This document shows, piece by piece, positions 31,411 through 36,486 of a DNA stretch of 46,691 bases (position 1 is its first letter; the number at the start of each line of letters is the position of its first letter). The stretch is from Candidatus Daviesbacteria bacterium (GTDB taxonomy: Bacteria; Patescibacteriota; Microgenomatia; Daviesbacterales; UBA10151). Location: assembly GCA_021731695.1 (NCBI GenBank), contig JAKFWZ010000019.1, positions 1 through 46,691 of the forward strand. The letters run 5' to 3'. The notes below the pieces were generated by a model that made no database searches, had not been told where the DNA came from, and worked only from the letters and a program-made list of their open reading frames with translations. Both the position numbers and the translations under genes were made by a program.

Positions 31411-32820
31411 ATGACATTGCCCGCAAGCCTCACATTTGTAGATATTGAAACAACAGGCGGATCAGTTACCCGCGACCGCATAATTGAAATCGGGCTTTTA
31501 AAAGTTATTGATAATAAAATCGAAACTACTTATAAAACCTTTTTAAATCCTGACCGGTTTTTACCTGATGAAATTCAATTATTGACAGGGATCACACCTT
31601 CTGATTTGGAGGGAGCACCAAGTTTTTTTGATATTAAAGACGAACTTCTCGAGTACTTTCAGGACGCTGTATTCGTCGCTCACAATGCACGGTTTGATTA
31701 CGGGTTTTTAAAACAGGAATTTTTAAGATACGGCGTTAAGTTTAGTCCGAAACAATTATGTACGGTTAAACTTTCGCGTTTGCTTTTCCCCGAACACAGG
31801 CATCATAATTTGGACAGTATTATTGATAGATTCGGATTCACAATCGAAAACCGGCACCGGGCTTTTGATGATGCAAAAGTTCTTTGGGATTTTTATCAAC
31901 AGGCTCAAACAAAAGTGCCGATGGAAAAGTTTTTAGATACAGTCGGGCATATTTTAAAAAAACCCAACACTCCCCCACAATTAAAAAATTTTGACTTATC
32001 TCATCTACCGGAATCACCCGGCGTTTATATATTTTACGGCAAATCCGGCGCTCCTTTATATGTAGGGAAGTCAAAAAATATCCGCGACCGGGTTTTTAAC
32101 CATTTTTCAATGAGTTCAGGTAATTCTTTTGAGATGAAAATTTACAACCAGGTTGAATCTGTTGAGGTTATCCAAACCGAAGGGGAATTAGGTGCATTAC
32201 TTCTCGAATCCGAGACAATTAAAAAATTACTACCTTTATATAACCGGATGCTACGAAATAAAGAAAAAATGGTGGTGGCAAAAAAGATTTCAGTTGACGG
32301 AGTTTTCGGGATAAAACTTGAAGAGACTGACTTTATCGATCCGGATTCCTTAGGTGACGTTATGGCAATTTATAAAACCCGGAAAGCTGCGAGAGAAGCT
32401 TTAGTTACCCTCGCCAAAGATTTTCAACTTTGCGATCGCTATTTGGGTTTAGAAAAAACTAAAACAGAATGCTTTAACGCCAGACTAGGGAAGTGTAAAG
32501 GAATCTGCGATGGCCGGGAAAATTCCATGAAATACAATTTAAGATTTATTGAAGCTTTTTACAGCTCAAAAATAAAATCCTGGCCTCATAACGGACCGGT
32601 TATTATCAAGGAAGGGAACGAAGGATTCCTGATTGATAAATGGTGCTTCATCGGCAAAGTAGATGAGGAAAACCAACCGTCCGGCCCGTATGAATACTCT
32701 TTTGATTTAGACTTTTACAAAATCTTTAAAAGATTTTTATATCAAACAAGCGACTCTAGTCGCTTGAAGATAGAAGGTTTCCCTTCATCCAATCCCCAAA
32801 ACCGCTTTAGCCCCGTTTAA
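31411..32820 (+). CDS. DnaQ-type 3'-5' exonuclease fused to a GIY-YIG (UvrC N-terminal-like) nuclease
   Basis: A 469-residue two-nuclease protein. Residues ~1-170: DEDDh exonuclease with FVDIETTGG (ExoI), AHNARFDYGFL (ExoII) and HRAFDDA (ExoIII). Residues ~200-290: GIY-YIG domain with GVYIFYGKSGAPLYVGKSKN and a downstream Arg/Glu set like UvrC and Cho. A cysteine-containing segment (CFNARLGKCKGICDG) follows, as in UvrC family members. The same fusion is known in Actinobacteria and is thought to act in DNA repair. A palindrome near the 3' end (32747-32766) encodes SDSSRLK, and the last 36 bases overlap the convergent gene. Confidence 0.9.
   Translation: MTLPASLTFVDIETTGGSVTRDRIIEIGLLKVIDNKIETTYKTFLNPDRFLPDEIQLLTGITPSDLEGAPSFFDIKDELLEYFQDAVFVAHNARFDYGFLKQEFLRYGVKFSPKQLCTVKLSRLLFPEHRHHNLDSIIDRFGFTIENRHRAFDDAKVLWDFYQQAQTKVPMEKFLDTVGHILKKPNTPPQLKNFDLSHLPESPGVYIFYGKSGAPLYVGKSKNIRDRVFNHFSMSSGNSFEMKIYNQVESVEVIQTEGELGALLLESETIKKLLPLYNRMLRNKEKMVVAKKISVDGVFGIKLEETDFIDPDSLGDVMAIYKTRKAAREALVTLAKDFQLCDRYLGLEKTKTECFNARLGKCKGICDGRENSMKYNLRFIEAFYSSKIKSWPHNGPVIIKEGNEGFLIDKWCFIGKVDEENQPSGPYEYSFDLDFYKIFKRFLYQTSDSSRLKIEGFPSSNPQNRFSPV
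32747..32766. repeat. In-frame palindrome near the exonuclease C-terminus
   Basis: Arms CAAGCGACT and AGTCGCTTG separated by CT. It encodes part of TSDSSRLKIE about 18 codons before the stop, in a tail that is not part of either nuclease domain, and may be another small inserted repeat of the genome. Confidence 0.6.
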
Positions 32821-33195
32821 TCTCTCTTTATTCGCCAAGTTTTCAACCGTTTGTTCTGCATATCTCCTTAAGAAAGGATTCACACCTAATACTCTTTCTC
32901 TTCCTGCCCTTTCGGAATCGGCAGAAGTTAAAATCCATCCGATGGCCTTTGCGGCAAAATCTCTCAATTTATCCGGCTCGCTTCTTCGGAGCAATCTGTA
33001 AGTAGTTAGCACTCCTAGCTCACCAACGCCTATACTTCTATTCGCACGCATTATTTGATCATGAACTTCACTTAATAACGCGGGCGTTCTTATTGCCGTA
33101 ATAGCGAGCCTTAATTCAGCCTCAACCTGTCTTGCCTGAAAGTTTGTATTTTGACCACCGGTCATTTCAGTCGGTGCCCTTTCTGCAAACATCAT
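32785..33195 (-). CDS. Hypothetical protein under T-box control
   Basis: A 136-residue soluble, Arg/Ala/Glu-rich, probably all-helical protein (EAELRLAITAIRTPALLSEV; LRDFAAKAIGWILTSADSER; RRYAEQTVENLANKERLNG). I do not recognise a family, and it has none of the motifs of an aminoacyl-tRNA synthetase, amino-acid transporter or biosynthetic enzyme, the usual T-box targets. The start at 33195 is set by a strong Shine-Dalgarno (GGAGGTGA) with 7-nt spacing. Its 3' end overlaps the exonuclease gene by 36 bases tail to tail. Expression should rise when the cognate tRNA (probably glycine, threonine or cysteine) is uncharged. Confidence 0.75.
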   Translation of the reverse strand: MMFAERAPTEMTGGQNTNFQARQVEAELRLAITAIRTPALLSEVHDQIMRANRSIGVGELGVLTTYRLLRRSEPDKLRDFAAKAIGWILTSADSERAGRERVLGVNPFLRRYAEQTVENLANKERLNGAKAVLGIG

Positions 33196-33247
33196 AATTT
33201 TTCACCTCCATTTCCCCGGATTTGCAGTGTTCTGGCCACTTAATCAC

Positions 33248-33298
33248 AAAAAAAGCCCTTGTAAAAACTCAAGCTTTTTCTTGAATTCCTACAAGGGC
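33248..33298 (-). terminator. T-box-controlled rho-independent terminator
   Basis: Minus-strand stem GCCCTTGTA (33298-33290) / TACAAGGGC (33263-33255), extended inside by TTCAAG/CTTGAG around AAAAAG, then seven T residues (33254-33248). It lies 53 nt before the start of the hypothetical gene and shares its 5' arm with the antiterminator. Confidence 0.88.
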
Positions 33299-33504
33299 CT
33301 TTAACTTCAAATTGTCAATTGTGCATTGTCAATTCTAAATTATTTTTGGCGGTTCCACCTTGATACATTAAAACATTGCTGCTTTAATCTTTACACCCAG
33401 CTCCGGATATCCGACATTGGGCAATCCAAATTATACAGAATGGATTTACTCTGTAAGGTATTTTTACCTTCAGCTAACGGATCGCAACTCCGCTCAACGC
33501 CTGT
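33248..33504 (-). promoter_or_regulatory. T-box riboswitch (tRNA-sensing transcription attenuator)
   Basis: The minus-strand leader contains CAAGG-TGGAACC-GCC (33362-33348), matching the T-box motif. Its halves pair with GGC-CCTTG (33299-33292): CAAGG with CCTTG (helix A1), GCC with GGC (A2), leaving the 7-nt TGGAACC bulge that binds the tRNA NCCA end. GGCCCTTG is also the 5' side of the terminator, so the two folds are exclusive, as in true T-boxes. TGGA implies a tRNA with U73 (Gly, Thr or Cys in most bacteria). Upstream lie a short stem I candidate (33504-33463, with GAAGGT as a possible Gly specifier), a hairpin TACAGA/TCTGTA whose loop AATCCA can pair with TGGATT (33428-33423) as in a stem II pseudoknot, and a CGGATATCCG stem. 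Confidence 0.78.
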
Positions 33505-33510
33505 AAAAGA

Positions 33511-33539
33511 AATTTACCAAAGCAATACGTAGCTGTCAA
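33511..33539 (-). promoter_or_regulatory. Promoter of the T-box leader
   Basis: TTGACA (33539-33534), 17 nt, TAAATT (33516-33511) on the minus strand, predicting a start near 33504. It overlaps the promoter region of the divergent HTH gene, with a CAACTGTTG dyad (33537-33545) between the two that could be an operator. Confidence 0.5.
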
Positions 33540-33557: not shown

Positions 33558-33770
33558 ATGCAAAATCAGGTAGTAAATTGTGTTCAGAGTCTTAGAACAG
33601 AGAAGAAAATTACTCAGGAGGAATTAGCTTCCGCAGTCGGCGTGACCAGGCAAACAATTATTGCAGTTGAAAAGGGAAATTATACCCCTTCGGTTTTACT
33701 GGCATTAAAAATTGCTAAATTTTTTAATACATCCGTTGAGAAATTATTTTGTATTAATGGGTTAAAATAA
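33558..33770 (+). CDS. Cro/CI-type helix-turn-helix regulator
   Basis: A 70-residue HTH_3 protein: [46 protein letters not shown] contains the complete five-helix fold (broken here only for length). It resembles the short YozG-like regulators that pair with a small membrane protein. That partner follows 4 bases later. A TAAAAT box (33546-33551) 6 nt before the ATG suggests a leaderless mRNA. The overlapping divergent promoter means it might also affect the T-box transcript. Confidence 0.92.
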
Positions 33771-33774
33771 AGTC

Positions 33775-34128
33775 ATGATTACTGAATCAATAACCGCGAT
33801 TTTAATATTTATTATAGCTGTCATTTTCCTTAACCCAGGGCATCTGGCAATGCCTGACACCGTTAACTCACTTTTAATACTAGGTTTTATTGTGGCGTTT
33901 TTGGCATTTTCAGCTTTTGTATTAAAGGAAAAATCAACCGACGAAAGAGAGGCTCTTCATATTTTAAGAGCGGGCAGAGTTTCGTATTTAACAGGGGTAG
34001 GAGTTTTAGTTTTGGGGATTGTTGTTCAGGCATTGAAACACGAAGTTGACCCCTGGCTGGTTTTTGCGATCTGCGCAATGGTTTTATCCAAGCTCCTTTC
34101 GCGCATTTATTCCAGAATCAAATTGTAA
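33775..34128 (+). CDS. Small multi-pass membrane protein paired with the HTH regulator (DUF2178-like)
   Basis: A 117-residue protein with four membrane helices: SITAILIFIIAVIFLNPG, LLILGFIVAFLAFSAFVL, SYLTGVGVLVLGIVVQAL and WLVFAICAMVLSKLLSRIY. A central KEKSTDEREALHILRAGR motif (charged DERE-x-x-H) is characteristic of the DUF2178-type membrane partners of short HTH regulators. Function of the pair is unknown; membrane sensing by the partner is a common suggestion. The gene starts 4 bases after the regulator and again has TAAAAT six bases before the ATG. Confidence 0.78.
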   Translation: MITESITAILIFIIAVIFLNPGHLAMPDTVNSLLILGFIVAFLAFSAFVLKEKSTDEREALHILRAGRVSYLTGVGVLVLGIVVQALKHEVDPWLVFAICAMVLSKLLSRIYSRIKL

Positions 34129-34135
34129 AGTAGAC

Positions 34136-34165
34136 TTGACATTATCTTTCCATTGGATTTAGAAT
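34136..34165 (+). promoter_or_regulatory. Strong promoter of the thioredoxin-dipZ operon
   Basis: Perfect TTGACA (34136-34141), 18 nt, TAGAAT (34160-34165). The ATG at 34179 is 13 nt after the -10, so the leader would be about 6-7 nt with no Shine-Dalgarno. Confidence 0.65.
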
Positions 34166-34178
34166 AACTTAAGAGCTT

Positions 34179-34721
34179 ATGAAATACACACTTTTCGCAA
34201 TTTTTATAATTCTTGTTTTGGTCGGTGCAGGAATTTATTTTTTTAATCAGTCCCAATACAATCTCTCGGATACTTACTCAGATGATGCAATGATGAAAAA
34301 GGATGATTCTATGGAGAAAACTGATTCATTAGTGGACAGTATGGAAGGATCGGATTCGGGAATGGAAAAATCCGACGGCTCTATGGACGAGTCAGGGGGT
34401 CACGGTCAATATATTGAGTTTTCGGAAAGCGCACTTCAATCGGCAAATGGTAAAAGAGTTTTGTTCTTTTATGCAAACTGGTGCCCAACATGCAGACCTG
34501 CAGATGAGGATTTCAAGCAAAACTCAGCAGAACTCCCTGAAGGTTTAACCATTATTAGAGTTAACTATAATGATTCAGACACTGATGCAGCCGAAAAGGC
34601 TCTGGCTCAAAAATATGGAATAACTTATCAACATACTTATGTTCAAATTGACGAAGAGGGAAATGAAGTTGCAAAATGGAACGGCGGACAAACTGAAAAA
34701 TTGCTTTCATCTATAAAGTGA
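34179..34721 (+). CDS. Membrane-anchored thioredoxin-like protein
   Basis: A 180-residue protein: N-terminal membrane helix (FAIFIILVLVGAGIYFF), a Met/Asp/Ser/Lys-rich linker (~30-75, repeats like DSMEKTDS) and a thioredoxin domain with VLFFYANWCPTCRPADEDF (Cys ~102 and ~105) and KYGITYQHTYVQIDEEG. The usual cis-Pro before the last strands is replaced by TYQHTY, so redox properties may differ. It precedes the DipZ-type gene by 22 bases and should receive electrons from it at the outer face of the membrane. Confidence 0.9.
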   Translation: MKYTLFAIFIILVLVGAGIYFFNQSQYNLSDTYSDDAMMKKDDSMEKTDSLVDSMEGSDSGMEKSDGSMDESGGHGQYIEFSESALQSANGKRVLFFYANWCPTCRPADEDFKQNSAELPEGLTIIRVNYNDSDTDAAEKALAQKYGITYQHTYVQIDEEGNEVAKWNGGQTEKLLSSIK

Positions 34722-34743
34722 TAACATAAATTAAGAAGTTTCT

Positions 34744-36486
34744 ATGATCCTTTTGATCTTTTTTGCATTCATCGCCGGAATTGTCACAATCCTCTCCCCC
34801 TGCATATTGCCTATTTTACCAATCATACTTTCATCATCAATCGGCACTCAAAATATCGGAAAGGGGAGACCGCTCGGAGTTATTACAGGATTTGTTTTAT
34901 CTTTTACTTTCTTTACTTTATTTCTAACGGCAATTGTCAGATTTTCCGGAGTTTCAGCGGATGCACTCAGATTATTCTCGATTGTTGTCATCGGACTTTT
35001 TGGATTATCAATGCTGATTCCAAAAGTTCAGATTTGGCTTGAGATATTATTTTCAAAACTATCCCAATTTATTCCGCAATCAGGAAGTCAAACCGGATTT
35101 GGCGGGGGAGTGATAATCGGACTTTCGCTGGGACTTCTTTGGACACCTTGTGTTGGACCAATTTTAGCATCAGTTATTTCTTTAGCTATAACCGGAACAG
35201 TTAATTTAGACGTAGCTTTAATTACTTTTGCTTACGCTTTGGGTACTGCAATTCCAATGTTTTTTATTATGATCGCGGGGCAATCTGCCTTAAGGAAAGT
35301 TCCCTGGCTTTTAGCAAATACCGGAAATATCCAGAAGATTTTTGGAGTATTGATGATTCTTACAGCTCTCGCATTATTTTTCAATTTTGATAGAAAATTC
35401 CAAACCGCAATTTTGAATACTTTTCCTTCTTATGGCACAGGCCTCACAAGCTTTGAAGATATTCCTTTAGTTCATGACGCATTAGAAAGTTTATCCGGTG
35501 AAAAACCAAATCCTGCAGATATGGGCAAACCTTCATTTGATATGACTGAGGGAAAAGGGGAGCCGGCATCTGATTTTATAGTCGGAGGACAGTGGTTCAA
35601 CTCCCCTCCCCTATCTCTACAAGATTTGCGTGGAAAAGTTGTACTCGTCGATTTCTGGACATATTCGTGTATAAATTGCCAGCGCACTTTCCCCTATTTA
35701 AAATCATGGAACGAAAAATACAAAGATAAAGGTTTAGTTATTATTGGTGTTCACTCCCCTGAATTTGAATTTGAGAAAAATCCTGAAAATGTTAAAAAAG
35801 CTTTAACAGATTTTGGTATCACCTACCCCGTTGTGCAGGATAATGATTTCTCAACCTGGCGCGCATATAACAACCGCTACTGGCCGGCAAAATATCTGAT
35901 CGATAAAGACGGCAATATTCGTTACGAACATTTCGGCGAAGGTGATTATGACCAAACTGAAAAAATGATTCAGGATTTACTTAAAGAAACCGGATCTGAT
36001 GTTACTGATTCAATTAACAATCCCGAACAGGAAATATTCTCCAGAACTCCTGAATTATATTTAGGCTACGGGCGAATAGAATTTTTATCATCACCTGAAA
36101 CTTTAAAAAGAGACTCGACAGGTACTTACACTTCCTCCCCCACTCCTCCTGCAAATACTTTTGGATTTGTTGGTAATTGGAATGTGATGGAAGAATATTC
36201 AAATGCTAGTCAGGGTTCCAAATTATTTTTAAATTTCAATTCAAAAGAAGTTTATTTAGTAATGCGTCCTAAAGATCCGAATCAAAGCGCAAAAGTCAGA
36301 GTATATTTAGATGATAAATTAGTTTCAGAAACAGATTCTGCCGGAACGGATGTAATAGATAATGTTGTTACAATAAATGCGGATACGCTTTATAAATTAA
36401 TTAACTTGCAAACTCCGGGTCAACATATTTTGAAATTAGAATTTTTGGATGACAACATTGAAGTCTATGCGTTTACTTTTGGATAA
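34744..36486 (+). CDS. dipZ: DipZ-type CcdA / thioredoxin / C-terminal sandwich-domain protein
   Basis: A 580-residue fusion. Residues ~1-220: six-helix CcdA domain with ILSPCILPILP (Cys20) and LLWTPCVGPILA (Cys136), the pair that carries electrons across the membrane. Residues ~275-425: TlpA/AhpC-like thioredoxin with VDFWTYSCINCQRTFPYL (Cys309, Cys312). Residues ~430-580: a beta-rich domain ending LEFLDDNIEVYAFTFG, as in mycobacterial DipZ, proposed to be carbohydrate-binding-like. It supplies reductant to extracytoplasmic thiol proteins, probably including the thioredoxin encoded before it. A diverged copy of its last ~19 codons lies at 37029-37085. Confidence 0.93.
   Translation: MILLIFFAFIAGIVTILSPCILPILPIILSSSIGTQNIGKGRPLGVITGFVLSFTFFTLFLTAIVRFSGVSADALRLFSIVVIGLFGLSMLIPKVQIWLEILFSKLSQFIPQSGSQTGFGGGVIIGLSLGLLWTPCVGPILASVISLAITGTVNLDVALITFAYALGTAIPMFFIMIAGQSALRKVPWLLANTGNIQKIFGVLMILTALALFFNFDRKFQTAILNTFPSYGTGLTSFEDIPLVHDALESLSGEKPNPADMGKPSFDMTEGKGEPASDFIVGGQWFNSPPLSLQDLRGKVVLVDFWTYSCINCQRTFPYLKSWNEKYKDKGLVIIGVHSPEFEFEKNPENVKKALTDFGITYPVVQDNDFSTWRAYNNRYWPAKYLIDKDGNIRYEHFGEGDYDQTEKMIQDLLKETGSDVTDSINNPEQEIFSRTPELYLGYGRIEFLSSPETLKRDSTGTYTSSPTPPANTFGFVGNWNVMEEYSNASQGSKLFLNFNSKEVYLVMRPKDPNQSAKVRVYLDDKLVSETDSAGTDVIDNVVTINADTLYKLINLQTPGQHILKLEFLDDNIEVYAFTFG

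Follow-up and report, generated by a model that had tools for sequence, protein, structure and literature searches.

According to a 2020 review, T-boxes that act on transcription generally need a Stem I long enough to grip the elbow of the tRNA, and a short Stem I mostly belongs to T-boxes that act on translation, in which the specifier is apical when Stem I is ultrashort (PMC7583486). T-boxes before hypothetical genes are already on record in Firmicutes (54 target genes in a set of about 900 T-boxes had no known function; PMC2494555), so an orphan target is not by itself surprising. In the open-access full-text literature, we found no paper that joins T-box riboswitches with Patescibacteria or CPR bacteria. 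Here, we describe a structured leader, about 260 nt long and encoded on the minus strand (33504-33248) of a 46,691-nt stretch of DNA from an uncultured Candidatus Daviesbacteria bacterium, referred to below as the window, which is contig C8 of a 1.45-Mb genome that is 97% complete. The leader is very probably an ultrashort, transcription-terminating T-box, specific for tRNA-Cys(GCA), that switches on the gene of an orphan protein under cysteine shortage.

With the class I T-boxes of Rfam family RF00230, the leader shares a specifier codon, a Stem II region, a IIA/B pseudoknot, Stem III, the UGGNACC bulge and the choice between antiterminator and terminator, and its sister leaders share the amino-acid gene targets. 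It departs from them in that its Stem I stops at the specifier loop, without the distal double T-loop platform, in that ultrashort leaders score below the Rfam cut-off, and in having an orphan target. The translational ileS T-boxes of actinobacteria (Nocardia, Mycobacterium) are like it in their apical-loop specifier, in having no elbow-binding platform and in possessing Stem II and IIA/B; the specifier loop of the window, GUUGCGA, is terminal in Stem I and closed by CGGA/UCCG, as in class II ileS. Unlike them, it has a terminator instead of Shine–Dalgarno sequestration and comes from CPR bacteria rather than Actinobacteria, and the ultrashort CPR leaders serve Cys, Arg, His, Trp, Pro and Val rather than Ile. 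In having a hypothetical target, it resembles the Firmicute T-boxes mentioned above, but many of their targets can be annotated through homologues, whereas none was found for the protein in the window.

The leader and its homologues

The T-box motif described in the first-pass annotation, its coordinates and both of its alternative pairings proved to be exact in the sequence (Table 1). CAAGG and GCC pair perfectly with GGC-CCUUG. The terminator uses these letters as its 5′ arm as well, so that antiterminator and terminator exclude each other through the common arm GGCCCUUG. UGGNACC lies in a 7-nt bulge between the A1 and A2 helices in the window, and this T-box is kept in 74 of 85 homologous leaders. 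Folding of the leader, compared with shuffled sequences, gave z = -7.7.

Table 1. Features of the leader, its target gene and the other T-boxes of the same genome
Feature	Position	Strand	Details
Promoter, sigma-70 type	33511..33539	-	TTGACA-17-TAAATT, TG before -10; 10/12 consensus matches
Stem I, ultrashort	33472..33501	-	GGC/GCU clamp; K-turn-like internal loop GUUGAG/UUA; CGGA/UCCG; terminal loop GUUGCGA
Specifier triplet UGC (Cys)	33484..33486	-	inside terminal loop GUUGCGA, 33488-33482
Stem II hairpin	33455..33470	-	AAGGUA-AAAA-UACCUU; helix 2 of model, and model match
Stem IIA/B-like H-type pseudoknot	33423..33454	-	ACAGA/UCUGU; loop AAUCCA pairs with UGGAUU
Conserved UGUCGG..CCGGAG stem	33396..33421	-	CCCA/UGGG outside, CGG/CCG inside
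Stem III	33367..33388	-	AUUAAA/UUUAAU; from fold; flanking purine motif partly kept
T-box CAAGG-UGGAACC-GCC	33348..33362	-	antiterminator 5′ half with 7-nt bulge; CAAGG 33362-33358, UGGAACC 33357-33351, GCC 33350-33348; from sequence
Antiterminator loop	33300..33347	-	48 nt, holding AT-rich palindromic interspersed repeat
GGC-CCUUG	33292..33299	-	3′ arm of antiterminator, common to terminator
Intrinsic terminator	33248..33299	-	hairpin 33299-33254; T7 tail 33254-33248
Shine–Dalgarno GGAGG	33205..33209	-	about 40 nt downstream of terminator; from sequence
Orphan gene	32785..33195	-	136-aa product, lacking Cys and probably helical throughout
Terminator-like hairpin	32747..32766	-	ends single-gene unit
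Convergent gene	31411-32820	+	overlaps end of orphan ORF
Val T-box	C7		before 75-aa ORF and ValRS
Pro T-box	C2		before 185-aa ORF and ProRS
Trp T-box	C20		before trpE-trpG-trpD
Arg T-box	C9		specifier CGC; before 82-aa ORF, then APH-like, HAD and class I LysRS genes

At about 30 nt, Stem I is indeed ultrashort, in line with the early suspicion of a minimal T-box, and it has no distal elbow-binding double T-loop motif, which is absent from accepted ultrashort T-boxes too. Only 4 nt separate the end of the -10 region from the start of the element in the window, and the promoter score upstream of the 85 homologous leaders averages 9.55 of 12 (6.74 in shuffled sequences); with a promoter directly 5′ of the element, Stem I has no room for a 5′ extension. 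Below Stem I, there may be a K-turn, as judged by eye. The S-turn of Stem II and the flanks of Stem III are not clearly canonical in the window; the purine motif (RRRxG-Stem III-AA) can be seen by eye in sister leaders and is partly present here. Loop-to-downstream complementarity in 65 leaders scored 3.90, against 3.47 (sd 0.08) after swapping between leaders, and such covarying complementarity supports the predicted IIA/B pseudoknot, of 6 bp in the window. Between this pseudoknot and Stem III stands a UGUCGG..CGGAG stem that lies outside the textbook T-box and is found again in most non-Val leaders (e.g. L063, L064, L066, L069, L024 and L025).

The first-pass annotation had proposed a search with RF00230, but cmscan gave no T-box match on the window at any threshold tried, which we regard as a failure of sensitivity. 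The same model matched sister leaders with E-values of 3e-6 to 2.5e-3 (31-43 bits, against a gathering cut-off of 93 bits), and those matched were the ones free of the repeat insert; the window leader is missed because of its ultrashort Stem I and the repeat that enlarges its antiterminator loop. This palindromic, AT-rich repeat, GAATTGACAATG[CT]ACAATTGACAATT, is dispersed over the genome and the clade; in this genome, three T-boxes have a copy inside the antiterminator loop (window 33340-33305, G000:C9:23448-23518 and G000:C20:10610-10684).

A covariance model was built from the 5′ half (Stem I, Stem II and IIA, with the T-box excluded) of four leaders, MAFFT alignments of leaders with differing specifiers having been dropped for model building as they misaligned the specifier loop. 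It gave about 90 matches, in 65 of 233 genomes of the class, and 85 matches were realigned for counts of pairing and specifiers. Across three helices, 92% of positions were paired, each of the 15 pairs showed compensatory changes, and the covariation score was 0.694 (0.166 when shuffled); the Stem I helix was 97.6% paired, with such changes at 5/5 pairs, and the Stem II helix had them at 6/6. The model contained no T-box, yet a T-box lay downstream of 74 of the 85 matches. An exact or near-exact 8-bp arm followed the T-box in 56 of these 74 leaders (0.9% in shuffled sequences), and at least 62 of them have a T-tailed terminator hairpin that incorporates the arm, the terminator of the window being documented separately (Table 1). 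The A1 and A2 pairings, singled out early as the place to look for compensatory changes, have them in homologous leaders, both in A1 (CAAGG/CCUUG, AAGGA/UCCUU, GAAGA/UCUUC, AGAGA/UCUCU) and in A2 (GCC/GGC, ACG/CGU, GUG/CAC). A second model, built from 16 leaders with the window left out, matched the window at 33506-33431 (54.3 bits, E = 5e-14), the next-best match in the 46.7-kb window having E = 0.76. At the level of sequence, then, the first-pass observation of a T-box is confirmed.

Specifier, discriminator and cognate tRNA

The specifier columns of the aligned leaders read CGC before arg genes, CAC before tRNA-His or his genes and UGG before trp genes, and targets agree with specifiers (cysteine synthase and cystathionine lyase, argH/argG/argF, his, trp, proB/ProRS, ValRS): leaders with the loop GUCGCGA precede argH/argG, for example, and the 24 tRNA genes found behind CAC leaders are all for tRNA-His. 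Only three UGC leaders are known. One, with a loop identical to that of the window (GUUGCGA), precedes cysteine synthase in G010, a Candidatus Daviesbacteria genome (UBA9644) of the same family, where a cystathionine gamma-lyase/synthase-type gene lies alongside (gene names by sequence inspection); another, in the Candidatus Parcubacteria MAG SURF_62, precedes genes for an unknown 280-aa protein, a creatininase-family protein and a GNAT protein. By comparison with the sister leaders and their targets, the corresponding loop columns of the window are UGC, and hence the specifier is that of cysteine. Agreement between specifier and target is thus a property of the sister leaders, including the UGC leader before cysteine synthase, the target in the window being an orphan with no sequence link to cysteine.

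The variable base of UGGN tracks the specifier (CAC with G, 31/31; UGG with C, 10/10; UGC with A, 2/2; CGC with C in eight cases and U in six) and is the complement of the discriminator in tRNA-His (C73), tRNA-Trp (G73), tRNA-Cys (U73) and tRNA-Arg (G73); the U of some CGC leaders would complement an A73 in tRNA-Arg. A tRNA-family search of the window's genome found a sole tRNA-Cys, with anticodon GCA, U73 and the end ...GCC-T, so that the A of UGGA faces U73, and the forecast of a U73 tRNA, made from TGGA, holds for tRNA-Cys of the same genome. The discriminators in this genome are U for Cys, G for Trp, A for Pro, G for Arg(GCG) and A for Val(GAC), and the T-boxes match in 5/5 cases.

UGGA alone does not decide the matter, since tRNA-Gly and tRNA-Thr(GGT) of the genome likewise have U73, and a genuine T-box read by one of these might be imagined. 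Neither a Gly nor a Thr codon is present in the terminal loop GUUGCGA, however, and its columns are the ones that read CGC, CAC and UGG in Arg, His and Trp leaders, whereas GGU lies inside the paired Stem II hairpin, where sequence varies freely; the GAAGGT once taken as a hint of glycine (33471-33466) belongs to that hairpin and can be set aside, and we consider either tRNA a highly improbable ligand. No more attractive is a translational T-box that, like actinobacterial ileS, would hide its Shine–Dalgarno sequence rather than terminate: the ultrashort Stem I is familiar from the translational class (PMC7583486), but what competes with the antiterminator here is an intrinsic terminator hairpin ending in T7; the Shine–Dalgarno sequence, about 40 nt downstream, is outside the hairpin and the pairing of the switch, so that control would be transcriptional. 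PyrR was the top Rfam match on the window (E = 0.28), as might be expected if the leader were a constitutive attenuator or another metabolite switch (e.g. of PyrR type) resembling a T-box by chance; its score was 24.9 against a cut-off of 54, though, and neither the leave-one-out match nor the correlation between specifier and discriminator can be chance, so this idea has virtually no credence, and we attribute the PyrR and other weak Rfam matches to chance.

In the tRNA-Cys scheme that we prefer, transcription would start adjoining the ultrashort Stem I, and the terminal loop would display the codon UGC for pairing with the anticodon of tRNA-Cys, with help from the Stem II hairpin and from the IIA/B pseudoknot. 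An uncharged tRNA would pair through its 3′ U73-CCA end with UGGA in the bulge and stabilise the antiterminator; while this was held, RNA polymerase would read through and the 136-residue protein would be made. With charged tRNA, the terminator would form and transcription would stop, the net outcome being production of the protein under cysteine shortage. We infer the tRNA-dependent read-through, the stabilising roles and any benefit that the protein may bring.

The orphan target and its surroundings

The first-pass annotation called the target a 136-residue unknown and not a synthetase, and so it has remained in the databases searched: there were no homologues in 281 genomes of the class (best matches E 0.02-0.1) or in GTDB contigs, IMG/VR, Pfam, NCBIfam, PDB and PADLOC, and a PHROGs match to ribonucleotide reductase (E = 0.04) was judged to be chance. 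Nor is the protein related to the target of the SURF_62 UGC leader or to other small first ORFs. The ORF nevertheless looks truly coding: its codon score, 0.245 bits/codon, is inside the range of neighbouring genes (shuffled sequences not exceeding -0.03, other frames negative), and a strong Shine–Dalgarno sequence precedes it. Single-sequence AlphaFold2 predicted six helices and an all-helical protein, at low confidence (pLDDT 61). Its lack of cysteine was discarded as a clue, as by our estimate this occurs by chance in about one third of proteins of that size. A terminator-like hairpin 3′ of the ORF and a convergent next gene make the unit monocistronic. The divergent operon on the other side (33558-36486) encodes an Xre-type HTH regulator, a membrane protein, a thioredoxin-like protein and a DsbD-like protein with thioredoxin domains, a circumstantial thiol-redox context beside a putative cysteine T-box. 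No T-box was found upstream of CysRS in the same genome (C2:36630-38009).

An orphan in this position might also mean that the leader is an intact-looking relic, once the T-box of a cysteine gene since lost, with the ORF present by chance or in decay. In favour of this, no homologue of the ORF was found; G001, a relative of the same genus, has the neighbouring exonuclease (76% identity) with neither leader nor ORF beside it; and no cysteine synthase was seen in the window's genome, whose one PALP match is encoded downstream on the trp contig. Against this, promoter, specifier, T-box, terminator, Shine–Dalgarno sequence and coding signature are all intact, and small, unrelated ORFs stand first in several further T-box operons of the clade, so that we think a relic unlikely, albeit the most plausible of the alternatives, and keep to a working cysteine switch with the orphan as its target.

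T-boxes in the genome and the clade

The initial impression of a T-box in a CPR-like genome was well founded, the host being a CPR bacterium and T-boxes being many in its clade. Four further T-boxes, for Val, Pro, Trp and Arg, are recognisable in the same genome (Table 1), and the predicted T-box of the window is therefore not an isolated curiosity.

Several features of the sister leaders deserve mention. A tRNA-His(GUG) gene, usually with hisG/hisD or other genes behind it, follows about 24 of the 40 His-type ultrashort leaders, whose specifier is CAC (L093, L094, L095, L096, L098, L099, L101, L102, L105, L106, L114, L120, L122, L124, L125, L127, L130, L133 and others), and a Trp-type leader, L152, precedes tRNA-Trp; here, the T-box would control a transcript bearing its own ligand tRNA. 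A second intrinsic-terminator-like hairpin, with T5-T8, occurs in 25 of 74 leaders, of Arg, Trp and Pro types and in no His or Cys leader, in most cases placed 12-39 nt 5′ of the T-box (shuffled sequences had none; examples are L063, L103, L107, L118, L123, L129, L139, L144, L147, L151, L161, L166 and, at G000:C2, L066, among others). This suggests a two-step attenuator that would respond first to tRNA binding and second to charging. Small, mutually unrelated ORFs often intervene between the leader and a synthetase or biosynthesis gene (L001, L002, L063, L088, L117, L129, L131, L136, L141, L149, L161); three such first ORFs from the window's genome gave no convincing family match in Pfam. L015 (G005:C3:25376-25700) has tandem T-boxes, both UGGA, before a 134-aa ORF and glycyl-tRNA synthetase.

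T-boxes that join an ultrashort Stem I to a terminator, and do so for many specificities, appear to form a new T-box variant; their occurrence for several amino acids opens the long-Stem-I rule to testing. As they score below the Rfam cut-off, such leaders are probably under-annotated. More tentatively, CPR bacteria may possess a T-box class peculiar to them, ultrashort and of terminator type, and the copy in the window may have been turned from cysteine supply to a lineage-specific effector of cysteine starvation. The leader in the window would assign a cysteine-shortage signal to a protein for which sequence by itself offers no explanation. Gene control in CPR bacteria is little known, and these T-box leaders show that amino-acid sensing based on tRNA is common among them.
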